Assembly: GCF_019216885.1 (NCBI RefSeq)
Contig: NZ_JAAQRC020000002.1
Coordinates: 248,001 to 312,000, forward strand
DNA: 64,000 nt
Source of the DNA: Methylobacterium sp. SyP6R
GTDB taxonomy: Bacteria > Pseudomonadota > Alphaproteobacteria > Rhizobiales > Beijerinckiaceae
Reading direction: 5' to 3'
Shown: piece after piece, positions 40,451 through 58,028 of the stretch
Layout: every line of letters begins with the position of its first letter
Position numbering within the stretch: position 1 is the first letter of the stretch
The notes under the pieces: model-generated
The model's input: only the letters and a program-made list of their open reading frames with translations
Told to the model about the DNA's origin: nothing
The model's database searches: none
Made by a program: the position numbers and the translations under genes

Positions 40451-40463
40451 CGGATCGGCTCCC

Positions 40464-42050
40464 CTACCGCTTCAGGCTCAGGTCGAGGCCCTTGTAGAGC
40501 CCGGCGCCGTAGAGCCCGTGCGGCCGCACGCCCTCGACGCGGTCGCCCGACACGACCCAGAGCTGGCGCGTGACGAGGGGGATCCAGACATTGGCGGCGG
40601 TGAGCAGGCGTTGCGTCTCGGCATTCGCCTCCCGGCGCTTGGCGGGGTCGGTCGCGGTCGCGGCGGCGTCGATGAGCCCGTCGGTCTTCTCGTCCTTCCA
40701 GTTCATGCGGTTCGGCGTCGGCGCCTGCGTGCTCTTGAAGTAGAGGCTCAGGGCCTCGGTCGCGGTCCCGTAGGGATAGGACAGCATGAAGGCGTCGAAT
40801 TCCTGCGTCGCGAGCTTGCCCCAGGCGACGGTCGCGTCCCAGAGCTGAATCCGCATGTCGATGCCGACCTTGCGCAGGTCGGCCTGCATCGCCTCGGAGA
40901 TGCGCGGGTTCTGGTCGTCGCGGATGCCGTAGACTAGGAAGCTCGCCTTCTGGCCGTCCTTCACCCGGATGCCGTCCGGCCCGGGCGTCCAGCCGGCCTC
41001 GTCGAGGACCTTGGCGGCGCCGGCAGGATCGAATTTCGGCATCAGCGTCGCCGCCTTGGCGTCGTAGTCGAGCACGGTCGGGCTCAAGAGCGAGTGCAGC
41101 GGCGTGCCGTGGCCGAAATAGACCGCCTTGGCGATCGCGTCCTTGTTGACCGCCATGTTGGCGGCGCGGCGGATCGCCGGATCGCTCGAGACCGGCTTGT
41201 TCACCCGGAAGGCGAAGAAGACGTCGTAGATGTAGTCCTTCTGCTGCTGCACCTTCAGGCCCGGGACGCGCTGCATCGTGTCGATCGAGAACAGCGGCGG
41301 GTAGTAGGTGATGTCGGCCTGGCGCGCCTGCATGGCGGCCATCAGGGTGTTGGCCTCGGGCACCACCTTCCAGACGATCTGGTCGATCTCGGGCTTCGGG
41401 TTCTTGTAGATCGGCGGCCCCCAGATGTAATAGGGGTTCTTCTTCATCACGAGGTCCTGGCGCGGCGTCCAGCTGACCCAGCAATACGGCCCGGTGGCAT
41501 TGAAGCCCTGGACGCCGAAATTCTGCTCCAGCTTCTCGACCGTGTTCTTGTCGACGATCGAGCCGAAGGATTGCGTGAGCTGGTACAGGAGGTCGCTGAA
41601 CGGCTCCTGCAGCTCGTAGACCACCGTGTGGTCGTCGGTGGCGCGGATGTCCTTCACCTTGCCGGCGCGGTTGGCGACCGGCGAGCGGGTGGCCGGATCG
41701 ATCCAGCGCTTGAGCGAGTAGACCACGTCCTCGGCGGTCATCGCCCGGCCGTCGCAGAACTTCACGTCCTGGCGCAGGTCGAAGGTGTAGGTCCGGCCGT
41801 CCTCGGACCGGGTCCAGGATTTGGCCAGGAATGGCTTCACCGTCTTCATATCGAAGTCGAGGCTGACCAGCGTGTCGGCCAGCATGAACAGGATCTCGGA
41901 GGCCGCGGTCGCGGTCGAGCGCACGGGATCGTAGCGGTCGGCGTCGATGACCCGCAGGATGGTGAGCGGCGCCTTCGTCTGGGCGAGAGCCGGGACGAGG
42001 CCGAGCAGCGAGAGGCCGGCCGCCAGGGCGGTCCGCGCGAACATCGTCAT
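40464..42050 (-). CDS. dppA: Extracellular solute-binding protein, family 5 (DppA type)
   Basis: This 528-residue periplasmic receptor has a signal peptide ending near ALAQ (residue about 24). The family-5 pattern follows: TSEDG-type motif [27 protein letters not shown] and the [15 protein letters not shown] region. Such receptors bind peptides, nickel, opines, glycosides or amide compounds. ATG 42050 was chosen over the in-frame TTG one codon upstream. It lies between the permease and ATPase genes of its operon. Confidence 0.92.
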
Positions 42051-42073
42051 CAAAGATCCATCCTCTCGAATCG

Positions 42074-42964
42074 TCAGCGGCGCATCCGGGGGTCGAGGGC
42101 GTCGCGCAGGCCGTCGCCGAGCACGTTGAAGGCGAGCACGACGACGAAGATCAGCAGGCTCGGCAGGACCGAGACGTGGGGGGCGAAGAACAGGAAGTTG
42201 CGCCCGTCCGACGCCATGGCGCCCAGTTCGGCCGTCGGCGGCTGTGCGCCCAGCCCGATGAAGGACAGGAGCGAGCCGAGCAGGATCACCTGGCCGAAGC
42301 GCAGGGTGACGAAGACGAAGATCGGCGACAGGCAGTTGAGCAGGACGTACTTCGTCAGGATACGGCCGTCGCCCATGCCGATCGCCCGGGCGGCCTCGAT
42401 GTAGTCCTGCTGCAGCACCACGATCGCGGCCCCCCGCACCACCCGTGCCATCAGCGGGATGGTGGCAATCGAGAGCGCGGCGAGCACCGCCGTGAGGCCG
42501 GGCCCGACGATCGCCGTCAACGCGAGGCCGAACAGGATCGCCGGGAACGACAGGAGCACGTCCATCAGGCGCATCAGCAGGCCGGAGACGCGCGGGTAAT
42601 AGGCCGCCGCGAACCCGACGAGGCCGCCGAGGCCGCAGCCGATGACGACGGCGATGCTGCTCATTGCGAGCGTCATCCGCAGGCCGAACAGCAGCCGGGT
42701 GACCATGTCGCGCCCCTGCCCGTCGGTGCCGAGGAGGAAGCCGTCGCCCGGGGCCTTGAGCGTGTTGGCGAGGTCGCCCGCGTAAGGATCGGTCGGTGCG
42801 AGCCAGGGCGCGAGGAGCGCCGCGAGCACGAGCAGCGCGACGGCGACCAGGGCCGCGGCGCTCGCCGGCTCGCGCAGGAGGAAGCGCAGGACGGAGGGAC
42901 GCGCGGTGACCGCGAAGGCGGCGTGCGGGCTCGCCTCGGGCGTGAGCGCGATCGGATTGCTCAT
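42074..42964 (-). CDS. dppC: ABC transporter permease, DppC type
   Basis: This 296-residue inner-membrane protein has six predicted helices, the GTDGQGRDMVTRLLFG motif of DppC and an EAA loop around DYIEAARAIGMGDGRIL. The C-terminus NVLGDGLRDALDPRMRR is typical. Its ATG overlaps the dppB stop. Confidence 0.93.
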   Translation of the reverse strand: MSNPIALTPEASPHAAFAVTARPSVLRFLLREPASAAALVAVALLVLAALLAPWLAPTDPYAGDLANTLKAPGDGFLLGTDGQGRDMVTRLLFGLRMTLAMSSIAVVIGCGLGGLVGFAAAYYPRVSGLLMRLMDVLLSFPAILFGLALTAIVGPGLTAVLAALSIATIPLMARVVRGAAIVVLQQDYIEAARAIGMGDGRILTKYVLLNCLSPIFVFVTLRFGQVILLGSLLSFIGLGAQPPTAELGAMASDGRNFLFFAPHVSVLPSLLIFVVVLAFNVLGDGLRDALDPRMRR

Positions 42965-43905
42965 CGGGCCTCCCGGATGCGGGGATCGAGGAAGGCGTAG
43001 AGCACGTCGACGATCAGGTTGATGAGGATGAAGCCGGCGGACAGGACGATGATGGTGCCCTGCGCCATCGGCGCGTCGCTCGACAGGATGGCGCCGACGG
43101 CGAGCCGCCCGATGCCGGGCCAGCTGAAGATCGTCTCGACCACGACGGCGCCGCCGAGCAGGAAGCCGATCTGCAGACCGATCAGGGTGACGACCGGGAT
43201 CAGCGCGTTGCGCAGCGCGTGGCGGAGCACCACGGCCCGCTCGGTCAGGCCCTTCGCCCGCGCGGTGCGGACGTGGTCGGCCCCCAGCACGTCGAGGACG
43301 GAGCTGCGGGTCATGCGGGCGACCGGCCCGACGAAGACGCCGCCGAGCGTCACTGCCGGCAGGATCACGCCCAAGAGGCCCTCCCAGGTCCAGAGCGGCC
43401 CGGTACGGCCGGTGAAGGGCAGGAGCTGCCAGTGGAAGCCGAGGAGCCAGACGAGGCCAAGGCCGAGCAGGAAGACCGGCACCGAGACGCCGGCCACGGA
43501 GGCCGCCACCACCAGCCGGTCGGGCCAGCGGCCGCGCCAGTAGGCGCCGACCGTGCCGAGCAGGATGCCGAGCGGCACCGACCAGATCAGCGAGGCGAGC
43601 ATCAGTTCGAGCGTCGGTCCGATCGTGTTCCCGAGTTCCTCGATCACCGGCATGTTGTTGATGATCGAGACGCCGAGATCACCCCGCAGCAGTCGCCCGA
43701 GATAGATCATGAACTGGATCCAGAGCGGCTGGTCGAGGCCGAGATCGTGCCGGATCGCCTCGATGACGTCCTGCGTCGCCGTCGGCCCGGCGCGGACCAC
43801 CGCCGGATCGTTGGGCACGACCTGCATCAACAGGAATCCGACGAGCAGCACGCCGAGGAGGACCGGGACGGCGAGGAGCAGCCGTTGCAGGATCGTGCGG
43901 AGCAT
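42961..43905 (-). CDS. dppB: ABC transporter permease, DppB type
   Basis: This 314-residue protein has six predicted helices and the DppB opening MLRTILQRLLLAVPVLLGVL, the GDLGVSI motif and the EAA loop around DHVRTARAKGLTERAVVLRH. It is the first gene of the dppBCADF-hydrolase-hydrolase-iclR series. The 43906-44243 gap upstream should hold the promoter; I see no operator palindrome there. Confidence 0.93.
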   Translation of the reverse strand: MLRTILQRLLLAVPVLLGVLLVGFLLMQVVPNDPAVVRAGPTATQDVIEAIRHDLGLDQPLWIQFMIYLGRLLRGDLGVSIINNMPVIEELGNTIGPTLELMLASLIWSVPLGILLGTVGAYWRGRWPDRLVVAASVAGVSVPVFLLGLGLVWLLGFHWQLLPFTGRTGPLWTWEGLLGVILPAVTLGGVFVGPVARMTRSSVLDVLGADHVRTARAKGLTERAVVLRHALRNALIPVVTLIGLQIGFLLGGAVVVETIFSWPGIGRLAVGAILSSDAPMAQGTIIVLSAGFILINLIVDVLYAFLDPRIREAR

Positions 43906-44243
43906 CGGCGGCTAGAATCCCCGTGCCCGTGCCGGCCGGCGCCGACCGTCCCGCGGCGCCGGCGGGTCTCCGGCGGTCCATGGACCGTTCGATGCCGTGT
44001 CGTCCCTGAGCCCGGTCATGTGAGCCCTCCCGCGAGTGGCTTAATCCGTCAAGGGACCTGCAAGGTCTAGGCCAGGGTAACAGGGAATGGCCCCGGTTCA
44101 AGCCATTCGTCGCGATGGACGCTTCGATCGTATTGCTCAACAATACGATTTGGCGTTCCCATCGGGCGGGCGTCCCGGCGGCGTCGCATATGAACTATTG
44201 TGATTACTTCATATTTTTGGTCGCCTTGAGGGAGGAGGCAACG

Positions 44244-44516
44244 ATGGCAACCATGACCGTATCCTCGCCCGATCCGATGAAGGCGTGGGTCGAGGCTCAG
44301 ATCACGAACGGCGATTACGCCAGTTCGAGCGATGACGTGCGCGACCTCGTTCGCCGTGACCGCGAGCGTCGCATGCAGGAGATCAGCATCGAAGAACTGC
44401 GCAGCCTCGTCGCGGACGCGAAGGCGAGCGGCGTCGGCCCGCGCAGTATCGATGACATCGTCACGCAGGCGAAGGACATCGCCCGCGCCCGCGCCCGCGG
44501 CAGCTTGCGTGAGTAG
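44244..44516 (+). CDS. ParD-family antitoxin, orphan
   Basis: This 90-residue protein has an N-terminal ribbon-helix-helix of the ParD/CC2985 type (VEAQITNGDYASSSDDVRDL) and an acidic helical tail that would wrap a ParE toxin. The ribosome site GGAGGAGG lies 6 bp upstream of the ATG. The partner toxin gene directly behind it is broken, so the antitoxin is probably an orphan that might still neutralise ParE toxins from elsewhere. Confidence 0.88.
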   Translation: MATMTVSSPDPMKAWVEAQITNGDYASSSDDVRDLVRRDRERRMQEISIEELRSLVADAKASGVGPRSIDDIVTQAKDIARARARGSLRE

Positions 44517-44628: not shown

Positions 44629-46173
44629 TCAGGCGACGGTCGCCCGCTCCCGCACGTCGCCGACGACGCGGGCGCGGACGCGGCGGGCCCCGCCGGGCAG
44701 GTAGGCGATCGGGATGTCCTCGACCTCGATGACCTTGAGGCTGGCGGGCTCGGCCCCGGCCTCGACCGCCCGGCGCTCGGCGATTCCTTGCGCCTCGGCG
44801 AGTGCCGCGTCGCGGGAGAGGTCGGAGAAGATCTGGTCGACCTCGCCCGAGATCTGCGCCATCGCGGCGCCGAGCGCGTTGGCGACGCCGGCATGGGCGA
44901 CGCGCACGACCTCGCTGACGCCCTCGAGCCGGTCCGGAATCAGGAAGGCGCCGCCGCCCACCGCGACGAGTTCGGTCGCGCCGCCCGAACTCTTCATCCG
45001 GTCGACGCCCTCCTCGACCATCCCGGCGATGCGCGCCAGCATCAGGGCGACGAAGCCGGGATCGAGGTGGCGCACGCGGTCGCGGTCGCCGATCTCGACA
45101 CGGCCCGCCGCCACCGCGATGTCGGTCGCCGTCAGCGTGTCGCCGCCGAAGACCAGCGCCTTCTCGGTGATGCGGTAGCCGACGGAGCGCGGCCCGATCG
45201 CGCCCGACACGGGATCGATGATCGTGCCGCCGCCGAGCGCCATCGGCAGGAGATCGGGCATGCGGAACAGCGTGCGCACGCCCCCGATCGCCACGACGTT
45301 GTTAGCCTCGCGCGGGAAGCCGTTGACGAGCGAACCGACGTCGCTGGTCGTGCCCCCGACATCCACCACCATCGCGCCGTCGCGGCCCGACAGGAAGGCG
45401 GCGCCGCGCATCGAGTTGGTGGGGCCCGAGGCGAAGGAGTGGACGGGGTTGGCCGCCGCCACCTCCGCGAGCACGACGGTGCCGTCGTTCTGGGTCAGGA
45501 AGAACGGCGCCGCGATGCCCGACGCGGCGAGCGCCTCCTCGAAGGCCGCCACCGTCCGCAGGCCGAGGGATTGCAGCGCGGCGTTGAGCAGCGTGACGTT
45601 CTCGCGCTCGAGAAGCCCGATGCGGCCGAGCGTGTGCGACAGCGTCACCCTCGCCCCCGGGATCACGTCGCGGATGATGTCTGCCGCCTCCTCCTCGCAC
45701 ACGGCCGTCAGCGGCGAGAACAGGGCGGTGACGCCGACCGAGGTGATGCCGGCGTCGCGGATGCGGGACGCCGCATCCCGGATCGCGGCGCGGTCGAGGG
45801 GCACCAGCTCGCGCCCGTCATATTCGTGGCCGCCGGCCACCATGACCGACAGCGGATCGACGGCGTCGCGCAGGTCGTCCGGCCAGTCCACCGTCGGCGG
45901 CAGGGAGCGGGCCGCCGGCAGCGCGATGCGGATCGCCCCGACCCGTTCGAGCCGGGCGCGCTCGACCACCGCGTTGGTGAAGTGCGTCGTGCCGATCATC
46001 ACGGCGTCGATCCCCGCGAGCGGGACCGCCGCCCCGAGGTCGCGGATGACGGCGCGCACCCCCGACATCACGTCGGCGGTGGTCGGCGTCTTGACGGCGC
46101 CGAGGACCTGGGTGCCGTCGATCAGCACGGCATCCGTGTTGGTGCCGCCGACGTCGATGCCGATGCGCTTCAT
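44629..46173 (-). CDS. hyuA: Hydantoinase/oxoprolinase A subunit (HyuA type)
   Basis: This 514-residue protein has the actin-like ATPase motifs of HyuA: GIDVGGTNTDAVLIDG at residues 4-19, IGTTHFTNAV, and MVVDVGGTTSDVG in the centre. Members hydrolyse hydantoins or 5-oxoproline with ATP, usually with a HyuB partner. No hyuB is present; instead the gene follows a DUF917 gene (4-bp overlap), a pairing seen in other bacteria. The substrate is not known. Confidence 0.9.
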   Translation of the reverse strand: MKRIGIDVGGTNTDAVLIDGTQVLGAVKTPTTADVMSGVRAVIRDLGAAVPLAGIDAVMIGTTHFTNAVVERARLERVGAIRIALPAARSLPPTVDWPDDLRDAVDPLSVMVAGGHEYDGRELVPLDRAAIRDAASRIRDAGITSVGVTALFSPLTAVCEEEAADIIRDVIPGARVTLSHTLGRIGLLERENVTLLNAALQSLGLRTVAAFEEALAASGIAAPFFLTQNDGTVVLAEVAAANPVHSFASGPTNSMRGAAFLSGRDGAMVVDVGGTTSDVGSLVNGFPREANNVVAIGGVRTLFRMPDLLPMALGGGTIIDPVSGAIGPRSVGYRITEKALVFGGDTLTATDIAVAAGRVEIGDRDRVRHLDPGFVALMLARIAGMVEEGVDRMKSSGGATELVAVGGGAFLIPDRLEGVSEVVRVAHAGVANALGAAMAQISGEVDQIFSDLSRDAALAEAQGIAERRAVEAGAEPASLKVIEVEDIPIAYLPGGARRVRARVVGDVRERATVA

Positions 46174-47249
46174 GATGAAAAGACCGAGGTGAAGTCGATG
46201 TCGTAGCCGAAGGCCCGCGGGCCGACATGGGCGAGGCCCTTCGGCGACAGGAGGATGTCGGGTGCGGGCAAGGCCACCACCGTCACGCGCTGGCCGTAGC
46301 GCGCGGTCTCGGTGCCGATCGCCTCCCCCGAGACCGTGTCGAGGACGCAGATCAGGTCCGGGGTCATCACGACCGGCACCCCGTCCCGGAAGCCGACCGC
46401 CCACTCGTTCTGGAAGGCGAGTTCCATGCGGCTGCCGGCATCGTCGCCGAGCCCGTCGATGCGGGCCGAGCCGCGCAGGAAGCCGCCCGTCGCCGTGCGG
46501 TCGATGTCGCCGATCTTGCCGCGAAACAGGACCTTGCCGCCTTCATGCGCCACCACCGCGGCGACCGGGTCGGCGTGGGCGGCCCGCGCCTCGAGCACCG
46601 CCCGGCCGAGGCCGGTCGCCTTGGTGACGGTGTCGAGGACGCCCCATTGCTTGACCTCGCGCCCGGTGCGGGGCGCCTTGCAGGTCGCGGCGGTCGAGCC
46701 GACCTCGGTGCAGGCCTTGCGGGAGATCCGCTCCATCCAGGTCCAGGAGGCGGCGCGGGCCACCACCACCTCGTTGTCCCGGCAATCGACGAGGGTCAGC
46801 GGGTACATCCGGAGGTCGCCGATGGCGAAGCTCGTCATCTGCGCCTCCGGATAGGCGCGCCCCATCGCGTCGGCATCGACCACCGGGATGTCGAGATGCG
46901 CCGCCGCCAGGAACGGCGAGACGGCGTTGCCGCCGCCGATCTCGACGCTCATCACGGCGCGGAACCGCTTGCCCGTGACCTCCTCCATCAGCCGGACGGC
47001 GCGGGCGAGATGCGCCGGATCGACGAGCCGCTCCTGGCCGACGAGCGGCGCGCCCATCTTCGACACGACCGCCACATGGTCGTCGTCGTCGAGCGCCCGC
47101 GGGTCGATCAGCCGGCAGCGCTTGCCCTCGGCGTAGAGCGTCCTGAGGTTGAGCTCGGCGAGGTACGGGCTGCCGCCGCCGCCCGTCCCGAGGATCCAGG
47201 CGCCGATGCCGAGGGGCGCGATCTCCTCGGGCTCGAATTCGCGGATCAT
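46170..47249 (-). CDS. DUF917 / S-methylthiohydantoin desulfurase-domain protein
   Basis: This 359-residue protein has the DUF917 opening APLGIGAWILGTGGGGSPY, VSKMGAPLVGQER, and SVEIGGGNAVSPFLAAA. It overlaps hyuA by ATGA and likely forms a functional pair with it. The family has been linked to breakdown of sulfur-containing hydantoins; the substrate here is unproven. Upstream, 190 bp away, the AroM-LuxR gene is divergent and may regulate the pair. Confidence 0.88.
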   Translation of the reverse strand: MIREFEPEEIAPLGIGAWILGTGGGGSPYLAELNLRTLYAEGKRCRLIDPRALDDDDHVAVVSKMGAPLVGQERLVDPAHLARAVRLMEEVTGKRFRAVMSVEIGGGNAVSPFLAAAHLDIPVVDADAMGRAYPEAQMTSFAIGDLRMYPLTLVDCRDNEVVVARAASWTWMERISRKACTEVGSTAATCKAPRTGREVKQWGVLDTVTKATGLGRAVLEARAAHADPVAAVVAHEGGKVLFRGKIGDIDRTATGGFLRGSARIDGLGDDAGSRMELAFQNEWAVGFRDGVPVVMTPDLICVLDTVSGEAIGTETARYGQRVTVVALPAPDILLSPKGLAHVGPRAFGYDIDFTSVFSS

Positions 47250-47319
47250 GACCCCTCCTCACTGATCGGCGGCGAGGGTAAGGTCGGGCGCGGGCCCCGC
47301 CTATCCGGAGAGGCCCCTA

Positions 47320-47417
47320 GAGCGGCGTCGGATCGCGTTGCCATCGGACGCCGCTCCAGGATTTCGATTTTACCGCATTTTCCACGACGAACCGGTATCC
47401 CCTTCGTCGGAAAATGC
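47320..47417. repeat. Family-3 double-hairpin element, copy 1
   Basis: The first hairpin is GAGCGGCGTC (47320-47329) with GACGCCGCTC (47347-47356). The second is GCATTTTCC and GACGAA (47375-47391) with TTCGTC and GGAAAATGC (47403-47417). It fills most of the divergent gap and ends 22 bp before the AroM-LuxR start, so it should lie in that gene's promoter or leader. A relative is at 59.4 kb. Confidence 0.8.
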
Positions 47418-47439: not shown

Positions 47440-48366
47440 GTGGCGGGTCGCCTCAAGCGCGTGGTGTTCATCGAGGCCGGCCAGAGCCCGCGGGACGACA
47501 TCGTCCCGGAGATCCTGCTGCAGCTGAACGGGCCGGTCGAGCCGGTCGAGCGGGGCGCCCTCGACGGGCTGTCGCCGGCCGAGATCGCTGCCCTCGTGCC
47601 GGAGGCCGGCGAGGCGTCGCTCGTCACCCGCCTGCGCAGCGGCGAGGACGTCGTCGTATCCAAGGCCGCAGTCGGCGAGCGCATGGCGGCGATCCTGGCC
47701 TCCCTGCGCCCGCGCGAGTTCGACCTCGTGGTGATCCTCTCGACCGGGCTGCTGCGCGACTTCGACAGCCCGACCCCGATGGTGAACGCCCAGCGCGCCA
47801 TCGAATCCGGCATCCGGGCGCTCGCGGCGGAGGAGCAGCGCCTCGGCATCGTGCAGCCGATCGCCCGGCAGATCGAGGAGGTCCGGCTCCCCACCCTCGC
47901 CGATTACCCGGTCAGCCTCACCCACGCGATGCCGGGCGACCGCGACGCGCTCGCCCGCGCCATCGTCGATCTCGGCGGCTGCGAGGTGATCGTGCTGAAC
48001 TCGGTCGCCTTCGACGAGCGCGACCGCGCGATCGTCGCGCGGGCGACGGGCCGGCCCGTGGTGCTCGCCCGCCGCATCGTCGCGGGGGCGATCCGGCTGC
48101 TGCTCGACCAGGGCGGCGAGCCCTCGGGCGAACCGCGCCACGGACTTGCCGATTACGGCGAGCGCCTGTCCCGGCTCACCCCGCGCGAGCGCCAAGTGCT
48201 CTCGCTGATGGCGGAAGGGCTGACCTCGAAGGCGATCGGCCGCCAGCTCGCGATCAGCCCGAAGACCGTGGAGATCCACCGCTCCAAGGTGATGGGCAAG
48301 ATGGAAGTGGGCTCGCTGGGGGCGCTGATCCGGCTGGTGATGGCGGCGGAGGCGCCGGATGCATAG
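47440..48366 (+). CDS. AroM-domain protein fused to a LuxR-type HTH
   Basis: This 308-residue protein starts at GTG 47440 behind AGGAG. Residues 5-222 match the AroM family (FIEAGQSPRDDIVPEI, VSKAAVGERMAAI, RRIVAGAIRLLL) and align end to end with the stand-alone AroM at 52.8 kb. Residues 243-303 are a GerE/LuxR helix-turn-helix (RLTPRERQVLSLMAEGLTSK, then AIGRQLAISPKTVEIHRS). The stand-alone AroM has cysteines at 100 and 187; the aligned residues here are Ser101 and Ser188. AroM is related in fold to Asp/Glu/hydantoin racemases, so this may be an inactivated racemase-like domain used as a sensor. It is divergent from DUF917-hyuA, its likely target. Confidence 0.88.
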   Translation: MAGRLKRVVFIEAGQSPRDDIVPEILLQLNGPVEPVERGALDGLSPAEIAALVPEAGEASLVTRLRSGEDVVVSKAAVGERMAAILASLRPREFDLVVILSTGLLRDFDSPTPMVNAQRAIESGIRALAAEEQRLGIVQPIARQIEEVRLPTLADYPVSLTHAMPGDRDALARAIVDLGGCEVIVLNSVAFDERDRAIVARATGRPVVLARRIVAGAIRLLLDQGGEPSGEPRHGLADYGERLSRLTPRERQVLSLMAEGLTSKAIGRQLAISPKTVEIHRSKVMGKMEVGSLGALIRLVMAAEAPDA

Positions 48367-48510
48367 TGTTGAATTCGATCTTTTAGCACTGTGATGACAT
48401 GCTCGAGGCTCTCGATACGCATACCATCCAGTTCACGCTGCCGCCTCATACCGATCGTCCGCCGGTACGGCCCGGGCCTCATAGACACGAACGATACCTT
48501 TGGCTGATCT

Positions 48511-49689
48511 AATACCAACGGCCTGAGAGGGTGACTCGTCGTGTTGCGCCTTGGGTTGGCTTCTGATTCGATTGCGGGATCAGGAGAGTCTGCCATGGCC
48601 GGGATCGCCATCACCCGCACCGATTTGACCGCCGAGGAGTTGCGGTCCGCCTCCGCCACGGCGCCCAGCATCCTGGCGGCCCGGCGCATGCTGGCGCTCG
48701 CCCTGGTGCTGGATGGGGCCGACCGCACCGGCGCCGCCCGCTCCTGCGGCATGGATCGGCAGACTCTGCGCGACTGGGTCCATCGCTACAACGCCGAGGG
48801 ACTCGCCGGTCTGAACGACCGCAAGGCGCCGGGGCGGGCCGCCAAGCTGACGCCCGAGCAGAAGCAGCAACTGGCTGCTCTGGTCGAAGCGGGACCGGAC
48901 TTTGACAAGGACGGCGTGGTGCGCTGGCGCCGGGTCGACCTGCAGGCACGGATCAAGGAGTTGTTCGGGGTCGAGATGCACGAGCGCACGGTCGGCAAGC
49001 ATCTGGCGGAGTTGGGCTTCGTGCGGCTCTCGGTTCGCCCGCAGCATCCCAAGGCCAGCGACGAGACCCAGGACGCTTTTAAAAAAGCTTCGCCGCGCGC
49101 GTGGCAGAGATCCTGCCCGACCCCGCCCGCGCCAAGCCGCTCGAGATCTGGTTCCAGGATGAAGCCCGCGTCGGCCAGCAGGGCACGCTGACGCGGGTCT
49201 GGGCGCGCAAGGGCACGCGCCCGCGGGCTCCGCGCGACCAACGCTACAAGTGGACGTATCTGTTTGGCGCTGCCTGCCCGGCACGCGGGACCAGCGCGGC
49301 TTTAGTGCTGCCGACGGTCAACACGCAGATGATGTCGCTGCATCTGGCCGAGATCAGCAAGCAGGTCGCGCCGGGCTCGCACGCGATCCTGGTTCTGGAC
49401 GGGGCTGGCTACCACGGCACGGCCAAGACGCGCCGCCCGCGTGGCCTAGTCGTGCCGGACAACATCACGTTGATGCATCTGCCAGCGTCATCGCCGGAAC
49501 TGAACCCGATGGAGGTGGTCTGGCAGTACTTGCGTCAGAACAAGCTCGCCAACCGGGTGTTCCGCGACTACCGCCAGATCGTCGATGCCTGCTGCGACGC
49601 CTGGAACTTCTTCGCTGACAACCCAGGCCTCGTCACATCCATCACCGCCCGGGACTGGGCACAGGTCAAACTCTAGGGCCACTGGTATA
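48511..49689 (+). mobile_element. IS630-family insertion sequence
   Basis: The ends carry matching inverted repeats: AATACCAACGGCCTGAGAG on the left (from about 48512) and its counterpart CTCTAGGGCCACTGGTAT on the right (about 49671-49688). TA dinucleotides lie beside both, fitting IS630 targeting, though the exact boundary could not be fixed to the base. The element is about 1.18 kb with one transposase in two frames. It separates the AroM-LuxR gene from the low-GC island. Confidence 0.85.
48595..49676 (+). CDS. IS630 transposase, two overlapping frames
   Basis: Frame one (48595-49191) holds the HTH half (ARSCGMDRQTLRDWVHRY, HERTVGKHLAELGF). Frame two (entered near 49087, ends 49676) holds the DDE half: Asp in IWFQDEARVG, Asp in AILVLDGAGYH and Glu in PELNPMEVVWQYL. 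The frames meet at a T4A6 run (49077-49086). A -1 shift there joins FKK to SFAARVAEILP, the sequence that the relic at 5.0 kb encodes in one frame. So either ribosomal slippage makes the full protein or one A was lost and the gene is dead. Confidence 0.85.
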
Positions 49690-50018
49690 ACGACAACATT
49701 TCAAGGCATCGTGGCTATCGGGCGAACACCATTTACGGCCCATCTCCTCGACAGCAAACTCGGATAATATTTCGAAATTTATGACTCGCTGCCGTGCAGG
49801 TCACAATCAGCATCAGCTCAAAAGATGGACATAAATCCAGCAAATCCAGCTCAGCGTCTATAATTTAACATCTATTATCGCACGATTGATTTTTTACATC
49901 GAGGTGCGGGCATGCTTTATTCTTCACGCACCCCCGCAAATCGTCAGCAACGTTGGTTGAATACCGACACAAATTCGCATGCCGAAAATGTGCATCTGGC
50001 AATTCAACCGCATAGAAT
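49690..50018. other. AT-rich flank of the low-GC island, no gene
   Basis: About 330 bp behind the insertion sequence are clearly AT-rich and carry no convincing open frame. The 3' end of the helical-repeat gene lies at its right edge. No terminator with a clear T-run was identified. Confidence 0.6.
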
Positions 50019-52031
50019 TCATTTGCGAGCTATTTGCCTGATTGCATCATAGTGACCATCAAGTTGCAGACCGATTCGCTCAAGAAAATCAATTATATCA
50101 GCAAGTTCCTTACCCATTTCAGATGATATTTGCGAAAGCGACAGCTCAATCTTAGCTTTCGCAATCGGGTCGACTGACAGTGACAATTGAGGATATACAA
50201 TAAGCCAAATTTGATAATGATTTCTAAGCGCCAAATCTTTCGCTACAATATATTTTATATCGGCCTCATTTAATTTCTCACTAAGTTCGGCATAGCTGAT
50301 GGATTGAACTGATTTGCCATTTTCTGATAATGTAATTTTATTATTTTCTTTATCGTCGGCAATCTCGGCGGTAATCGAGGGGGCATCTGTTGCATTTTTT
50401 CTTGATTTAAAAGACACGTATTGCGTGTAGATTTTGTCGATGATTGAAACCGCATGCCCCGCCACGGTCGCGACCTGAGAGGCTTCCAACAAGCTAATCA
50501 TTGTTTCTGGCTCCTTATAAGTCTTATAAGATCTCATGACAGGGGATTGCAAGGATTGGTGGGTCAATCCGACACTCTCACCGGACAAGGGCGCCAAATC
50601 ATATCTGAATAACCTAATCTGTTCTTCTTTCAGGCGCGCCGCAGACCACCAAAGCCCAAAAGCACGCTGATCGAATGGCGAATATACTCGAAAAGGCGAT
50701 ACAAATGCAACTCTCCAGATAGAGCGAAGAATCGGCAAGGTTCGAAGATTTTGCAGCTCCTGGTGAAGCTCAGGGATTTTAGAATGATCGCCGGCATGTA
50801 CAACGGCTGCGATCATCCCACATTTCTCAAGCGTATCGCCAGCTTCTTCGTGTCGCCCTTCAATATAATCTAAGCTGCCCTCCTTCATGGAGCGCGCCAG
50901 ACCTAGAGCAGCCGTCCACCGAACAAAACTATGCTTTGAGTCCAACATTGACACGAATTGGGATTCGTATTGGCATTCGCCCGCCAACGCAAGCGAGTAG
51001 AGAAGCTGGCAGCGAATTTCGTTGTCTTCTTCCGAGCTAAGAATGCGTTCGGCAAATCCCTCTGTACCGGACCAGTCAATTGGAACCATCCGCAGAGAAC
51101 TATATGCCCAATCTAAGTATCCGTAGCCGGCACCTTTTTGCCTGATGTACTCTGCGACCAAAGAGGCGACATGCTTATCCCGTAACTCTCCTAGCGCTAT
51201 AGAGGCAGAAACACGGCGTTGATGACCGATTTCAGAATATTCTCCGATCGTCCCCAAAAGAAATCTGACAGATCGAACAGAGCGAGCCTCTTGTAAAACG
51301 TCGCAAGTTATCTCTCTCCAACTTACAGAGCTCGATTGGTTGTAGCAATGTATAAGGCCATCGACGCAAGCTGGCGACAATTCATGATCTACAGCCCTAA
51401 TAATACTTCCGTAGCGAGATCGACTCGGCTCCATTTCCTCATATATTTGTGTCAAATCCCTCAATTGCTCTAAAATATATCTTCTGTTGTCTGGCGTTGT
51501 TGCAGATCCAGCAAATCTAACAAGGGCTTCTATGACATAAGAAGAAAGCTTGCCAAAATAATATCGGTCGTAATTTCCAGCTACTTGGCTTCTATCAGTG
51601 ATCCATTCTCCGGTATATGCAAGATCTTGTAAAAAATAAGACCAATTACCCGATTTTAGAAAACCAAGAGCTTCAATTGTACGCCTCAGGCAATCCATTG
51701 ATTCTTCGTTCTTCTTAAGAATTTCGATCAACGGCCTATCCAGCTCGTTACTTGATTTAAAGCCGGCAAAACATGCTGCGGCGGCGCCCGATTGATGCCA
51801 TCCGCCATGAATCAGCGATTCTTTAAATATACTTGCTACTTTAGGACCAAGAGATGAAGATAAATTTTTTAATCTTATTGACGTCTGATGTGTGTCATTG
51901 TGCGCAAAATCATTATTAACAAGAGCATTTGCAACTTTGTGAGCATCCAACACACTTAATCTCTTGCAGGCATCCTGCCCTGCGACCGGGTCATTTTCAT
52001 AAATTTTCACAACGTCCTGATCTAAACCCAT
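50019..52031 (-). CDS. Low-GC helical-repeat (HEAT/ARM-like) protein of unknown function
   Basis: This 670-residue cytoplasmic-looking protein has no signal peptide or membrane segment. Most of it consists of paired amphipathic helices of the HEAT/ARM kind (for example RRVSASIALGELRDKHVASL and FVRWTAALGLARSMKEGSLD). From about residue 510 it changes to a separate C-terminal part with a lysine/asparagine-rich linker and a predicted helical end. ATG 52031 was chosen because GAGGT lies 5 bp upstream; an in-frame GTG is 24 bp further out. Codon use is AT-rich, unlike every neighbour, so the gene is likely imported. I do not recognise a catalytic domain or a named family. Confidence 0.75.
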   Translation of the reverse strand: MGLDQDVVKIYENDPVAGQDACKRLSVLDAHKVANALVNNDFAHNDTHQTSIRLKNLSSSLGPKVASIFKESLIHGGWHQSGAAAACFAGFKSSNELDRPLIEILKKNEESMDCLRRTIEALGFLKSGNWSYFLQDLAYTGEWITDRSQVAGNYDRYYFGKLSSYVIEALVRFAGSATTPDNRRYILEQLRDLTQIYEEMEPSRSRYGSIIRAVDHELSPACVDGLIHCYNQSSSVSWREITCDVLQEARSVRSVRFLLGTIGEYSEIGHQRRVSASIALGELRDKHVASLVAEYIRQKGAGYGYLDWAYSSLRMVPIDWSGTEGFAERILSSEEDNEIRCQLLYSLALAGECQYESQFVSMLDSKHSFVRWTAALGLARSMKEGSLDYIEGRHEEAGDTLEKCGMIAAVVHAGDHSKIPELHQELQNLRTLPILRSIWRVAFVSPFRVYSPFDQRAFGLWWSAARLKEEQIRLFRYDLAPLSGESVGLTHQSLQSPVMRSYKTYKEPETMISLLEASQVATVAGHAVSIIDKIYTQYVSFKSRKNATDAPSITAEIADDKENNKITLSENGKSVQSISYAELSEKLNEADIKYIVAKDLALRNHYQIWLIVYPQLSLSVDPIAKAKIELSLSQISSEMGKELADIIDFLERIGLQLDGHYDAIRQIARK

Positions 52032-52059
52032 TTCACACCTCAAATTCGCACGCACATCA

Positions 52060-52500
52060 GTTCGGTCTATAGACCTTCAAGTCCAAGATATGGCTTCCTA
52101 CTGCTTAAAATGGCATCTCGTTCGTTCATACTAGCAGGACGAAAGCGCCGCGATAGTACCTATTTTTCCGTGGCTCCGCTGAAAGCAGCAGCGAAATGCA
52201 AAATCATAACAAGTAAATGGTGATATTATTTGCAAATTTCTGAGTCTAAGATCATTATATAAACGACTCTTTACGTCATGTAGTAGATACAGCGTAGAAC
52301 ATTATAAAAAAATTTAAAAATCTTGCCAATATAATTAAAAATTTTTGTTTGCGACAGCCATAAAAACGGTCGCAAATATTGTATTTGTTGTATAATTTAC
52401 ATTACATAATAAGATTATTGTAGCAAAAATCTAGAAGAAAAGATAATTATAAATCAATTAATTTCCGAGAATTGTTTATATTTTTCTAAGAATTTTAGGT
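52060..52500. other. AT-rich region upstream of the helical-repeat gene
   Basis: About 440 bp are very AT-rich and hold no convincing gene. They should include the promoter of the leftward helical-repeat gene. Composition returns abruptly to GC-rich near 52500, which marks the right edge of the imported island. Confidence 0.65.
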
Positions 52501-52780
52501 GCGGGATGCAATTTTCGCATCCAAGCTCATGCACTAGCCCGTCTTATAGCGCAATCCTCACGCTTGGCGTCCTATTGACGGGGGGCCACCCCTCGCCCTT
52601 ACCAGCCTTTCCAATGGCTAGGCCGCTTGGATCCAGACTGTGTGCCGACCCGCGATTGCCCACCCAGCGGGCAGAAACCCTCGTTTAGCCACCCGCTTCC
52701 TAAGGGCACTCCCCTATAGCGGCTTGCTCGGACGAGGGTCTAGCTTCGGGTGGGTCGACGCGGAACCGGCAGGGGATTGG
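52501..52780 (+). promoter_or_regulatory. Structured leader region upstream of aroM
   Basis: A hairpin GGATGC-AATTTTC-GCATCC lies at 52504-52522, and CCACCCG (52689-52695) can pair with CGGGTGG (52747-52753). No known riboswitch class is recognised. The segment has no good coding frame and should contain the promoter of aroM and its ABC operon. Confidence 0.35.
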
Positions 52781-53446
52781 ATGAAGCGCACGAACCGGCT
52801 CGCTTTCGTGACGATCGGGCAGTCGCCGCGGATCGACATGGTGCCGGAGATGCTGGCCGAGATCGGCGGTGAGGTCGAGGTGCGGGAATACGGCGTGCTC
52901 GACGATGCGAAGGAGGCCGAGATCGCCGCCCTGCACCCGCGCGAGGGCGAGGCCTCCTTCGCCAGCCGCCTGCGCGACGGGCGCGAGGCGGTGCTGTCGA
53001 AAGACCGCATCGAGGAGCGCCTGTCGGATCTTCTCAAGGCCATCGACCGCCACGGCCACGACGCGGTCGTGCTCCTGTGCACGGGCACGCAGGTCGAACC
53101 GCTCGCGAACACGCTCCTTGTCGAATCCCAGCGCATCGTCGATGCCACCGTCGAGGCGCTCGCCGCCTCGTGCCCGAAGCTCGGCGTGATGGTGCCGCTC
53201 GCCCGCCAGGTCGCGGAGTTCCCGGCGCGGCACGTCTTCCGCGGTAAGCCGAAGGTCGTGGCGGCCTCGCCATACGCCGGCGACGCCATGGCGGAGCGCG
53301 CCGCAATGCTGGCCGACCGCGACCTGATCGTCATGCATTGCATGGGCTACACCGAGGCGATGCGCCGCGAGGTCCGCGACGCCGTCGAGGCCCCCGTCCT
53401 CCTGTCGCGCCGGATCGTTGCCGGCGCCGTCCGCCAGCTTCTCTGA
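52781..53446 (+). CDS. AroM-family protein
   Basis: This 221-residue protein has the AroM opening RLAFVTIGQSPRIDMVPEML, VLSKDRIEERL, VMVPLARQVAEF and RRIVAGAVRQLL. It keeps Cys100 (VLLCTGTQ) and Cys187 (IVMHCMGY), placed like the paired cysteines of Asp/Glu/hydantoin racemases. AroM itself has no proven reaction. AGGGG lies 7 bp upstream of the ATG. It leads the operon of the second peptide-type ABC importer, so it may act on the imported compound. Confidence 0.88.
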   Translation: MKRTNRLAFVTIGQSPRIDMVPEMLAEIGGEVEVREYGVLDDAKEAEIAALHPREGEASFASRLRDGREAVLSKDRIEERLSDLLKAIDRHGHDAVVLLCTGTQVEPLANTLLVESQRIVDATVEALAASCPKLGVMVPLARQVAEFPARHVFRGKPKVVAASPYAGDAMAERAAMLADRDLIVMHCMGYTEAMRREVRDAVEAPVLLSRRIVAGAVRQLL

Positions 53447-53492: not shown

Positions 53493-55076
53493 ATGCGCAG
53501 ACTCGGCCTCGGATTGCTCGCAGCGGCTCTGCTGGCGGGCGCCGTCGGTCCCGCCGGCGCCTTCGAGCGCGTCGGCGACCGCAAGGTGATCGTGTTCGGC
53601 GGGCGCCAGCAGGTGCCGGTGCTCGATCCGCACGTGCGCTACGACTGGTCGACCCGCATGCTGCAGCAGGCGGTCTACGACGCCCTCGTCAAGTACGAGG
53701 GCAACCCGGCCGAGGTGAAGCCGTGGCTCGCCGAGAGCTGGGAGACCAGCCCCGACGGCAAGACCTGGACGTTCCATCTCACCGGTACGGCGAAGTTCCA
53801 TACCGGCGACCCGGTCGATGCCGAGGCCGTGCGCTACTCCTTCGTGCGGGGCCTGAAGCTCAACAAGGGCGTCGCCTGGATGCTCAAGGACTTCCTCGGG
53901 CCGGAGGGCGTCGAGGCGGTCGATGCCAGGACCGTCCGCTTCACGCTGAAAAAACCTTACGCGGCCTTCCTGTCGTTCCTGCCCTGGTGGTACGTCGTCG
54001 ATCCGAAGCAGGTCGAAGCACATGCGGTCGACGGCGACGACGGCCAGAAGTGGCTCACCGACCACGAGGCCGGCTCCGGCCCGTTCACGATCAAGCGCTG
54101 GGAGCCCAACGTGCTCCACGAACTCGCCGCGGTGCCCGATTACTGGAAGGGCTGGCCGCAGGGCGAGGCGCACCGCCCGGCCGGCGTGATCTACCGGATC
54201 GTCCGCGAGCCGGCCGCCCAGAAGGCCTCGCTGCTGCGGGGCGAATCCGACATCGTCGAGGGCCTGACGCCGGACGACTACGTCCAGGTCGCGCGCCAGA
54301 AGGGCGTGGCGATCGAGGACCATGCCGGCATGACGACCTTCGGCATCAAGATGAACAACAAGGTCGGGCCGACCGCCGACCCGAACCTGCGCAAGGCGAT
54401 CGCCTACGCCCTCGACTATGACGGCCTGGTCCAGATCTACAACGGTGCCGCCAGGCTCCAGACGAGCGTGTTTCCGGCCGGCATGAAGGGCCATATCGAC
54501 GTGCCGGGCATGCCGCGGCGCGACCTCGCCAAGGCGAAGGAGTATCTGGCGAAGTCGGCCTATCCGAATGGCGGGATCACCCTCGAATACGACCACATCA
54601 CCGGGCTCGAGGAGGCGCGCCGGATCGGCCTTCTTCTCCTCGACAATCTCTCCGCCCTCAACATCAAGGTCGACATGCGGCCCGAGCAATGGCCGAACAT
54701 GGTGGCCAAGGGCTCGAAACCGGAGACCTCGCCGAACCTGACCTCGGTCTTCGTGACGCCGATCTCGACCGACCCGGACGCGGTCGCCTATCAGTACCAC
54801 CCCAATTCCTGGGGCCAGTACTTCGCGATGTCGTTCTACGACAACCCGGACGTCGCCCGGATGATCGACGAGGCACGCTCGACGCCCGACTGGGACAAGC
54901 GTGCGCCCCTCTATGCCGAGATCCAGAAGCGGATCGTCGCCGACCAGCCGGAGGTGTTCGGCATGGTGCAGAACCGCCGCTGGGCCCGCCGCGACGTGCT
55001 GAAGGGCTTCAGCTTCAGCCCGGTGCGGTTCACCGGCGAGGTCGACCTCTACCCGCTCTGGATCGACGCCAAGTAG
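53493..55076 (+). CDS. Extracellular solute-binding protein, family 5 (DppA type)
   Basis: This 527-residue receptor has a signal peptide ending near PAGA (residue about 23). Family-5 features follow: TSPDGKTWTFHLTGTAKFHTG, then GPFTIKRWEPN and a C-terminal EIQKRIVADQPEVFGMVQNR. It is distinct from the receptor at 40.5 kb. It sits between aroM and the permease genes, so its ligand is probably also the AroM substrate or effector. Confidence 0.92.
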   Translation: MRRLGLGLLAAALLAGAVGPAGAFERVGDRKVIVFGGRQQVPVLDPHVRYDWSTRMLQQAVYDALVKYEGNPAEVKPWLAESWETSPDGKTWTFHLTGTAKFHTGDPVDAEAVRYSFVRGLKLNKGVAWMLKDFLGPEGVEAVDARTVRFTLKKPYAAFLSFLPWWYVVDPKQVEAHAVDGDDGQKWLTDHEAGSGPFTIKRWEPNVLHELAAVPDYWKGWPQGEAHRPAGVIYRIVREPAAQKASLLRGESDIVEGLTPDDYVQVARQKGVAIEDHAGMTTFGIKMNNKVGPTADPNLRKAIAYALDYDGLVQIYNGAARLQTSVFPAGMKGHIDVPGMPRRDLAKAKEYLAKSAYPNGGITLEYDHITGLEEARRIGLLLLDNLSALNIKVDMRPEQWPNMVAKGSKPETSPNLTSVFVTPISTDPDAVAYQYHPNSWGQYFAMSFYDNPDVARMIDEARSTPDWDKRAPLYAEIQKRIVADQPEVFGMVQNRRWARRDVLKGFSFSPVRFTGEVDLYPLWIDAK

Positions 55077-55094
55077 GCTCGAGGGGGAACGGCT

Positions 55095-56102
55095 TTGCTG
55101 CGCTTCGCGCTCAAGAAGCTCCTGACCGTCGCCGGCACGATGCTCGGCCTCGCCGTGCTGACCTTCCTCATCACCAACGTGGCGCCGGGCGATCCCGCCC
55201 GGCTCGTCGCCGGCCCCGAGGCGACCGCCGACATGGTCGAGACCGTCCGCCGGGAATACGGCCTCGACAAGCCGCTGCCGGTGCAGCTCGCGATCTATCT
55301 CGGGGACCTCGCCAAGGGCGATCTCGGCACCTCGATCGTCACGACGCGGCCGGTCCTGTCCGAGCTCGGGCGCTATTTCCCGGCGACGCTCGAACTGGTG
55401 CTCGTCGCGATGGCAATCGGCGTCGGGCTCGGGCTGCCGCTCGGCATCCTGTCGGCCCTGAAGCGCGACGGCCCCCTCGACCATCTCACCCGCATCCTGT
55501 CGATCTCAGGGGTGGCGCTGCCGGCCTTCTGGTTCGGCATCCTGCTTCAGCTCACTTTCGCCGTGCATCTCGAATGGCTGCCGGTCTCGGGCCGCCTGCC
55601 GCTCTCGGAGGCGCCGCCCGCGGCGATCACCGGCCTGATCCTCGTCGATTCGCTGCTGCGCGGGCAGTTCGAGACCTTTCGCGAGGCGCTCTTCCACATC
55701 CTGCTTCCGGCGATCGTGCTCTCCTTCCCGTGCCTCGCCTCGATCCTCCGGGTGAACCGCGCCGAGATGATCGAGGCGCTGCAATCCGATCACGTCGTGG
55801 CGGCGCGCGCCCACGGCATCGCGCCGTTTCGCATCGTCGCAATCTATGCCCTGCGCAACGCGCTCCTGCCCACCCTCGCGATGATCGGCCTGCGCTTCGG
55901 CTGGATGCTGGGCTCCACCGTGCTCGTCGAGACGGTGTTCGACTGGCCCGGCATCGGCCTCTACGCGGTCTCCTCGGCGCTCGCCTCGGACTTCAAGCCG
56001 GTCGTCGGTGTGACGCTGGCGATCGGGCTCTGCTTCATGACCGTCAACATCCTGGTCGACCTCGCCTATGCGTGGATCGACCCGCGCCTGAGGGCCGCGT
56101 GA
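55095..56102 (+). CDS. ABC transporter permease, DppB type
   Basis: This 335-residue membrane protein has the DppB pattern: MLRFALKKLLTVAGTMLGLA, GDLGTSIVTTRPVL, and the EAA loop around DHVVAARAHGIAPFRIVAIY. Start is TTG 55095 behind GAGGGGGA. Its TGA shares its last base with the ATG of the next permease gene. Confidence 0.92.
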   Translation: MLRFALKKLLTVAGTMLGLAVLTFLITNVAPGDPARLVAGPEATADMVETVRREYGLDKPLPVQLAIYLGDLAKGDLGTSIVTTRPVLSELGRYFPATLELVLVAMAIGVGLGLPLGILSALKRDGPLDHLTRILSISGVALPAFWFGILLQLTFAVHLEWLPVSGRLPLSEAPPAAITGLILVDSLLRGQFETFREALFHILLPAIVLSFPCLASILRVNRAEMIEALQSDHVVAARAHGIAPFRIVAIYALRNALLPTLAMIGLRFGWMLGSTVLVETVFDWPGIGLYAVSSALASDFKPVVGVTLAIGLCFMTVNILVDLAYAWIDPRLRAA

Positions 56103-57028
56103 TGGCGCTCCCGGACATCTCCCCTGCCCTCTCCGACGCGCCGCCCGCCTTCCGGGTGCGCCACGCCACCACGATCCGCCAGTGGCGGCTCTACGCCCAT
56201 CTCTTCTCCCGCTCGTTCTCCTCGATGCTGGGCCTCGCCCTCGTCGTGCTGTTCCTGGTGCTCGCCGCCTTCGGACCCTGGCTCGCCCCCTATCCGGGCG
56301 ACACGATGGGCGCCGTGAAGCTGTCGCAGCGGCTCCTGTCCCCGTCCTGGGCCCACCCCTTCGGCACCGACGAGATGGGCGCCGACCTCCTGTCCCGGGT
56401 CATCGTCGGCGCCCGCATCTCGCTGTGGATCGGCCTCATCATCACCGTGGTGGGGGCCGGCATCGGCGTGCCGCTCGGGATCGTCGCCGGCTACACGAAG
56501 AGCCGCCTGGTGCGCGGCGCCATCATGCGCCTCACCGATCTGTTCCTCGCGGTGCCGGGCCTCGCGCTGGCGCTCGCGATCGTGGCGGCGCTCGGCCCCG
56601 GCATCGCGAACTGCATCGCGGCGCTCGCGCTCGTCTGGTGGCCGGGCTACGTCCGCCTCGTCGAGGCCAAGACCCTGTCGGTCAAGGAGGAATTGTTCGT
56701 CGAGGCGAGCCGGGCCGCGGGCGCCCGCACGCCCTGGATCCTGTGGCACCACATCCTGCCGAACTGCCTGTCGCCGATCATCGTCAAGCTGTCGATGGAT
56801 ATGGGCCTCGCCGTGCTCTCGGCCGCGAGCCTCGGCTTCATCGGGCTTGGCGCCAAGCCGCCGGATCCGGAATGGGGCGCGATGATCTCGGTCGCCCGCT
56901 CCTACATGCCTGACTGGTGGTGGTACTCGGCCTGCCCGGGCCTCGCCATCTTCCTGACCGTGCTCGGCTTCAACCTGCTCGGCGACGGCCTGCGCGACAT
57001 CCTCGACCCCAAAAGTGCCGGACGATGA
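56102..57028 (+). CDS. ABC transporter permease, DppC type
   Basis: This 308-residue membrane protein has the FGTDEMGADLLSRVIVGARI motif, an EAA loop around LFVEASRAAGARTPWIL and the C-terminal NLLGDGLRDILDPK. It overlaps dppB by one base (TGATG) and precedes the first ATPase gene. Confidence 0.92.
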   Translation: MALPDISPALSDAPPAFRVRHATTIRQWRLYAHLFSRSFSSMLGLALVVLFLVLAAFGPWLAPYPGDTMGAVKLSQRLLSPSWAHPFGTDEMGADLLSRVIVGARISLWIGLIITVVGAGIGVPLGIVAGYTKSRLVRGAIMRLTDLFLAVPGLALALAIVAALGPGIANCIAALALVWWPGYVRLVEAKTLSVKEELFVEASRAAGARTPWILWHHILPNCLSPIIVKLSMDMGLAVLSAASLGFIGLGAKPPDPEWGAMISVARSYMPDWWWYSACPGLAIFLTVLGFNLLGDGLRDILDPKSAGR

Positions 57029-57041
57029 GGAGCACGGGGCG

Positions 57042-58011
<970 letters not shown>

Positions 58012-58028
<17 letters not shown>

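Follow-up and report, generated by a model that had tools for sequence, protein, structure and literature searches.

Organisation of the locus

The window analysed here, meaning the whole stretch of 64,000 nucleotides, carries a gene in which an AroM domain is fused to a LuxR-type DNA-binding domain. On one side lies a divergent gene pair, and on the other, further downstream, a stand-alone aroM gene with an importer operon. The features are listed below, with coordinates counted from the first letter of the window.

44629..46173, minus strand: hydantoinase/oxoprolinase A-type gene (hyuA; PF05378 and PF01968); probable target by synteny
46170..47249, minus strand: DUF917 (S-Me-THD-like) gene, divergent from the fusion (PF06032 and PF20906); probable target by synteny
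47274..47280, minus strand: -10-like element of the DUF917-hyuA promoter, 22-28 nt after box 1 (column information 1.20, shuffled maximum 0.83)
47302..47321, no strand: operator-like inverted repeat 1 (box 1, TATCCGGAGAGGCCCCTAGA), 52 bp before the DUF917 start codon, from a de novo motif; score 12.0
47440..48366, plus strand: AroM-LuxR(GerE) fusion gene, 308 aa, GTG start, from frame reading and Pfam
47470..48096, plus strand: AroM domain of the fusion, residues 11-219 (PF07302, 148.7 bits; racemase fold in the predicted structure)
47740..47742, plus strand: Ser101 codon, replacing the first cysteine (alignments; cysteine at the site in 0 of 55 fusions)
48001..48003, plus strand: Ser188 codon, replacing the second cysteine (alignments; cysteine at the site in 0 of 55 fusions)
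48172..48336, plus strand: GerE/LuxR-type helix-turn-helix, FixJ/StyR-like, residues 245-299 (PF00196)
52699..52718, no strand: operator-like inverted repeat 2 (box 2, CCTAAGGGCACTCCCCTATA), before the aroM-ABC operon; score 13.6, the best in the window, p 0.001
52741..52746, plus strand: -10-like element of the aroM promoter, 23-28 nt after box 2 (column information 1.31, shuffled maximum 0.76)
52781..53446, plus strand: stand-alone AroM with Cys100 and Cys187 intact (PF07302, 206 bits; model pLDDT 95.2)
53493..58028, plus strand: ABC importer of the peptide/nickel type, downstream of aroM: a binding protein (PF00496), two permeases and the first ATPase; gene order conserved; probable target

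For hyuA, the ATG adjoining the DUF917 stop was taken as the start; the first start in the frame list lies upstream of it. The stand-alone AroM, which the initial annotation had correctly placed 4.4 kb downstream of the fusion, most likely starts at the ATG at 52781; the longer listed frame starts upstream of box 2. The permease and ATPase names in the importer operon are taken from the annotated relative L033.

Several other genes are present. A second peptide/nickel-type ABC system lies beyond hyuA (39401-43905, minus strand). Its binding protein matches PF00496 and is 93% identical in L039, the rest being assigned by eye. A short frame at 44115-44516 (plus strand) looks like what we take to be a ParD-type antitoxin. 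Between the fusion and the aroM operon, and outside both boxes, there is a transposase in two overlapping frames (48541-49676), the first of which has an NCBIfam match to the IS630 type. A 678-residue protein (50019-52055, minus strand) has a weak HEAT-repeat match (26.7 bits, cut-off 27.7), and comparison with the window did not find it in the loci of the two closest relatives, L038 and L039. The gap between fusion and aroM spans 48367-52699 in the window, 8927-11851 in L038 and 8927-12861 in L039, and the gap DNA of the window aligns to neither relative. On this comparison the gap is an insertion-prone spot in three closely related genomes.

A paper in Nature Communications (PMC11055893) reports an enrichment of AroM and DUF917 genes in the neighbourhood of cyclodipeptide-oxidase-like genes, and also states that neither family has an experimentally characterised member. 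NCBIfam has named thiohydantoin desulfurase models for relatives of DUF917. The DUF917 protein encoded here falls far below their cut-offs (117.9 vs 450 bits), and a thiohydantoin desulfurase substrate is therefore not claimed.

The fusion protein and its distribution

The fusion is read through as a single frame of 308 codons with no internal stop. As the initial annotation had described, it comprises a full AroM domain, matching profile positions 4-216 of 219 and far exceeding the PF07302 gathering cut-off of 23.8 bits, followed by a GerE-type helix-turn-helix (HTH) domain (PF00196, 70.6 bits, cut-off 23.5). The predicted model of the AroM domain has the racemase fold. For the HTH the nearest NCBIfam model is FixJ, with a score below that model's cut-off, and structure comparison of the predicted model places it closest to StyR/FixJ. 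A Pfam scan at E 0.001 found neither a receiver domain (PF00072) nor an autoinducer-binding domain (PF03472) in the fusion, the N-terminus being AroM.

Among the relatives found, the closest come from Methylobacterium sp. DB0501 and M. terricola (L038 and L039). Diverged fusions, with 34-63% identity, occur in many other genera, and plasmid-borne ones in Neorhizobium, Ketogulonicigenium and Shinella. The fusion is therefore not a local frameshift artefact. When an alignment of four AroM parts was used as the query, the match was a fusion in 37 of 73 contig loci. Profile re-search of every frame of the contig loci, the plasmid loci and the window, covering both domains, brought the total to 44. 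The search for PF07302-PF00196 fusions proposed in the initial annotation, tabulated with cysteine positions and neighbouring genes, thus returned a conserved family. All 44 frames are intact, and an origin by frameshift, which would have told against the initial annotation, is rejected, as is a chance fusion.

A divergent DUF917 gene lies beside 37 of the 44 fusions (synteny recounted by hand; Pfam for the window). Of the remaining seven, five have other neighbours (L063, L068, L069, L070 and the main copy of L073), one (L071) shows a DUF917 match that is only weak, and one (L060) sits at the end of its contig. Sneathiella sp. SAT66 (L073) carries two diverged fusions, at 567-1481 and 8001-8906, each with a box 90-115 bp upstream; its main copy is divergent from an aroM-like/ABC operon, not from DUF917.

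Every named host is an alphaproteobacterium or a metagenome bin labelled no finer than Pseudomonadota. A class-wide PF07302 survey gave a match in 15 of 385 genomes and 10 distinct fusions, that of the window included. The order-wide survey (match in 20 of 397 genomes) gave two fusions beyond the window's, with AroM parts identical to those of L055 and L075. A phylum-wide draw of 398 genomes yielded 14 genomes with a match, 12 newly read loci, and no fusion except that of the window. No fusion was found among 296 genomes from the phylum of Kribbella soli (5 with a PF07302 match), nor among 149 from the phylum to which the Acidobacteria bin L072 belongs (9 of them matching). Across loci L175-L190 the HTH occurs only in L178, from a Chelativorans genome, and none of the 36 same-genus genomes listed has a match spanning the AroM part plus tail.

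Operator-like boxes and promoter geometry

A de novo palindromic motif search identified one 20-bp inverted repeat in all 19 of 19 non-redundant divergent gaps, with the core TA[CAG]G[GT]G-N4-C[AC]C[CGT]TA. Its log-likelihood was 225.8, compared with 124 and 131 in shuffled sets, of which there were only two. Low-scoring left-hand boxes occur in L062 (7.3), L064 (5.7) and L097 (7.8).

The matrix was trained on the divergent gaps alone and then run over whole loci. In most of them the best remaining site is just before the operon downstream of the fusion. These right-hand boxes carry the weight of the argument, because they were not used in training. In a region-restricted test a second box is present in 29 of 30 fusion loci at p <= 0.006, the significance coming from shuffles of two-base blocks, which are not fully dinucleotide-preserving; these 30 were chosen from the 44 fusions, with near copies omitted and L105 set aside because its locus stops too early. 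In L071 the first 350 bp past the fusion contain no box (p 0.83), and one is found 4 kb on. The second box is also present where the downstream operon is not aroM-ABC (Ketogulonicigenium L034, Shinella L035, L063 and L069). The box is present in 0 of 35 control loci, which have a stand-alone AroM but lack a fusion within the stretch retrieved. The 26 fusion loci scanned (408 kb) contain 45 sites with a score of at least 9, and the control loci (513 kb) contain 2.

In the 64 kb window, the only sites scoring at least 9 are boxes 1 and 2. A genome-wide scan of 7.5 Mb for the two-box pattern, allowing one mismatch at most, recovered both of them and one 1-mismatch site elsewhere. Differing foreign DNA parts the fusion from aroM in the window, L038 and L039, and in each the box remains with aroM; homology resumes before or within about a base of box 2, and in L039 within a base or two. 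Conserved operator-like sites thus precede both of the targets named in the initial annotation, DUF917-hyuA and aroM-ABC, which lends that assignment independent support at the sequence level.

With the box as the anchor of the alignment, a -10-like element, TA....TT, emerges in both target promoters and exceeds the maximum from 1000 shuffles; the spacing from box to element is fixed at 21-23 bp in both. Toward the fusion gene there is no -10-like signal (column information 0.66, shuffled maximum 0.89). If the TA....TT element is the -10, then the box centre would lie near -43. Class II activator sites of LuxR-type proteins sit near such a position, and at about -42 proteins of the LuxR/FixJ type usually activate transcription. 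For this reason activation is preferred over repression, and the statement of the initial annotation that the fusion controls these genes can be sharpened: from the box position, it probably activates them.

Variation in the boxes goes with the recognition helix. A C at position 5 of the half-site is found in 2 of 52 half-sites for ISPK proteins and in 35 of 58 for ISPR/ISHR/VSPR proteins (29 loci). The presence of K or R in the helix goes with the half-site type and is confounded with descent, so that the association can be taken as supporting evidence only.

Repression is the alternative that survives best, and we consider it unlikely. The fusion would sense a metabolite of the same kind, and the boxes would serve as operators keeping both promoters shut off until inducer is bound. 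A box just upstream of the -35 region or overlapping it could repress, and the box and spacing data are compatible with this too. It is the fixed distance from the -10-like element in both targets, at about the class II spacing, that counts against it, together with the absence of any fixed box place toward the fusion itself and the usual behaviour of LuxR/FixJ-type proteins at about -42.

The two cysteine sites

Profile comparison links stand-alone AroM to the hydantoin racemase of Pyrococcus, 2eq5 (E 5.4e-5), and both AroM cysteines fall on 2eq5 cysteines that are presumably the catalytic pair. Profile alignment places them likewise on cysteines of a PF01177 racemase. The racemase-type cysteine pair attributed to AroM in the initial annotation is thereby borne out, E. 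coli AroM having the second cysteine only. Several alignments agree in matching Cys100 and Cys187 of the stand-alone protein with Ser101 and Ser188 of the fusion, so that the fusion does not have the two active-site cysteines of a racemase. In the predicted structures the serines directly follow strands 96-100 and 183-186 of the fusion, and the cysteines strands 95-98 and 182-185 of the stand-alone protein. Together with the match to the two 2eq5 cysteines, this argues against a location of the sites away from the pocket. A search of solved structures with the single stand-alone AroM sequence gave no usable match. The match to the PrpR sensor domain (2pju; Foldseek E 4.8e-5, TM-score 0.29 by query length) was too weak to support a kinship.

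In the pooled set of 163 sequences, cysteine is absent at both sites in 55 of 55 fusions (50 distinct sequences, since some organisms are present twice via different collections). Conservation of the cysteines in most fusions would have counted against the initial annotation; not one fusion keeps them. The 108 stand-alone rows comprise 99 with both cysteines, 7 with serine at site 1 only (E. coli-like) and 2 with a gap at site 2; the latter are L167 and L168, which were kept in a count that omits repeat-place loci and stretches shorter than about 190 residues. After thinning at 88% identity, both cysteines are missing from 33 of 33 fusions and present in 81 of 89 stand-alones. In every one of the 37 loci with an alignable pair, the stand-alone has both cysteines and the fusion neither. 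These loci are not independent, as many are from close Rhizobiaceae, and the count omits L105, where the second match is unaligned at the cysteines. The contig scan was seeded with fusions lacking the cysteines, but its patterns are N-terminal and it also recovered stand-alones. The class-, phylum- and order-wide PF07302 surveys are independent of that query and agree on the split, the class-wide one in 10 of 10 fusions and 12 of 12 full-length stand-alones.

The two sites differ in what their loss implies. E. coli AroM (L191) has serine at site 1 and cysteine at site 2, as do 7 of the 12 loci newly read from the phylum-wide draw (L134-L137 and L139-L141). What alone sets the fusions apart is therefore the missing second cysteine, and the missing pair; loss of the first by itself is no proof of lost catalysis. 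The GQ.PR.D motif, which the fusions keep, is lost in E. coli AroM and in L135. Given this and its serine at site 1, the E. coli protein, namesake of the family, may not be a classical two-cysteine racemase.

A few sequences stand apart. L124 (genome G095) has a weak AroM-like stretch without the cysteines (36.9 Pfam bits) and no HTH, in a long frame that overlaps opposite-strand frames; it is possibly a degenerate or different AroM. The remote AroM-like loci L155-L158, L166 and L169 have the cysteine at site 1 and cannot be aligned at site 2. L159-L163 and L131 are partial or sub-cut-off AroM matches.

Most of the other conserved pocket motifs are kept. The motifs G14 Q15 P17 R18 D20, G39 L41 D42, T102 G103, P140 and Q144 are retained at 82-100% in the 33 thinned fusions. 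An apparent loss of the SPY-loop proline (30 of 33 in one alignment) was dropped, since another alignment places the proline of AMPG in the window's fusion there. The ratio dN/dS is 0.02-0.09 for the AroM part of the fusion in six genome pairs, and 0.23-0.27 for stand-alone AroM in the two pairs measured. By these values the AroM part of the fusion is under purifying selection and is not a relic. Motif retention with a low dN/dS is the pattern expected, at the sequence level, of a binding site freed from catalysis.

A serine could in principle still act at one of the sites, and the AroM domain might then catalyse with serine, or with serine and other groups, regulation being a side function. 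We regard such a trigger enzyme as very improbable. Site 2 is serine in 43 of the 44 fusions, which could mean a role for it, and E. coli AroM, if functional, works with serine at site 1. Against this, site 1 varies among the fusions (S, T, A, G, M), site 2 is alanine in two fusions of the pooled set, the 33 thinned fusions do not have the tyrosine found in the SPY motif of the stand-alones (a placement that depends on the alignment), and 37 loci encode a cysteine-bearing AroM as well. A non-catalytic sensor domain remains the preferred reading.

Descent of the fusions

A tree of 122 rows, from which the two cysteine columns were left out, unites the fusions in a single group that requires one change (SH-aLRT 92). 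With 61 of these rows, the fusion split has support of 81/64 and appears in 85% of 200 bootstrap trees. On these values a single origin is favoured, not proven. The nearest stand-alones on the tree are AroM proteins from the same kind of operon. Most simply, the pathway enzyme would have been duplicated, and one copy would have acquired an HTH and lost both cysteines.

Three genomes (G228, G325 and that of Chelativorans multitrophicus, the source of L069) have a fusion and no other PF07302 match, so that the sensor does not seem to need an enzyme partner. The fusion and the stand-alone are paralogues in one locus and racemase-fold enzymes form dimers, but these three genomes speak against a switch based on pairing between the dead domain and the stand-alone AroM, with transcription reporting enzyme amount or occupancy, which is the least likely reading of all.

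Proposed function

Our preferred reading, to which we give a probability of roughly 0.7, is that the fusion is a non-catalytic sensor-activator of racemase fold, derived from a duplicated AroM enzyme and acting on DUF917-hyuA and aroM-ABC. It would be a one-component transcription activator. The AroM domain retains the fold and most of the conserved pocket motifs and has lost both presumed proton-transfer cysteines, and because of that loss it should bind a pathway metabolite without turnover. The ligand would be a metabolite resembling a substrate or product of the AroM/DUF917/HyuA pathway and arising from an imported compound; the neighbouring genes, and they only, suggest that it is hydantoin-, carbamoyl- or cyclic-dipeptide-like. 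Binding would be passed to the C-terminal FixJ/LuxR-type HTH. A dimer of the HTH would then occupy the 16-20 bp inverted repeat at about -43 in the two promoters and recruit RNA polymerase, activating import (aroM-ABC) and breakdown (the divergent DUF917-hyuA).

The fused architecture, the paired cysteine loss, the single tree group, the purifying selection, the synteny and the two boxes of fixed spacing tied to the fusion are computed. Ligand sensing, DNA binding by the fusion, its dimeric state, activation over repression and the nature of the ligand are what we infer. The observation made in the initial annotation stands, and its interpretation was largely right, as the cysteine split, tree, selection and boxes support. 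To it the present analysis adds, from sequence comparison, a strict split of cysteines between enzyme and putative sensor, the tree grouping, the purifying selection and a candidate two-promoter operator system with class II-like spacing.

The broader proposal is somewhat less secure, and we consider it probable: that these proteins are a new class of one-component regulator with a disarmed Asp/Glu-racemase-fold sensor, which arose once in Alphaproteobacteria from the pathway's own AroM and a FixJ-like HTH, and which activates importer and catabolic operons through a dyad box near -43. No AroM-LuxR regulator was found described in the open-access literature searched, which agrees with the initial annotation, to whose author no described regulator of this architecture was known. 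Nor was a description found there of the racemase fold, this HTH class and the disarmed state together.

If the proposal is true, then the ligand of the fusion would identify the pathway, as AroM and DUF917 have no known reaction. The predicted ligand-binding AroM domain without cysteines and the two candidate boxes make the substrate of AroM approachable by a simple binding and reporter assay, and the pair of box and sensor could serve as a biosensor module. The system would also illustrate clearly how an enzyme turns into a sensor. Because a cysteine-bearing enzyme and its cysteine-less, HTH-tailed sister are found in the same locus in all 37 alignable pairs, the steps from catalyst to receptor are open to study.

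Comparison with known systems

The fusion resembles the AroM family (PF07302) in having a whole AroM domain, the same pocket motifs and the same loci. It differs in having an HTH and neither cysteine, and it is a regulator by inference. The absence of both cysteines also separates it from the hydantoin and allantoin racemases (2eq5, 5lg5), and for that reason it should not be filed as a racemase. With the NarL/FixJ and LuxR activators it shares a FixJ-like GerE HTH and a dyad box at a class II-like position, whereas it has neither the receiver (PF00072) nor the acyl-homoserine-lactone domain (PF03472), its sensor being a racemase fold. One-component regulators derived from enzymes, such as GabR/MocR, are a known kind. 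There too a catalytic fold is reused as a sensor and the pathway genes adjoin, but the fold and the HTH class are different, and in the fusion the presumed catalytic residues themselves are gone.
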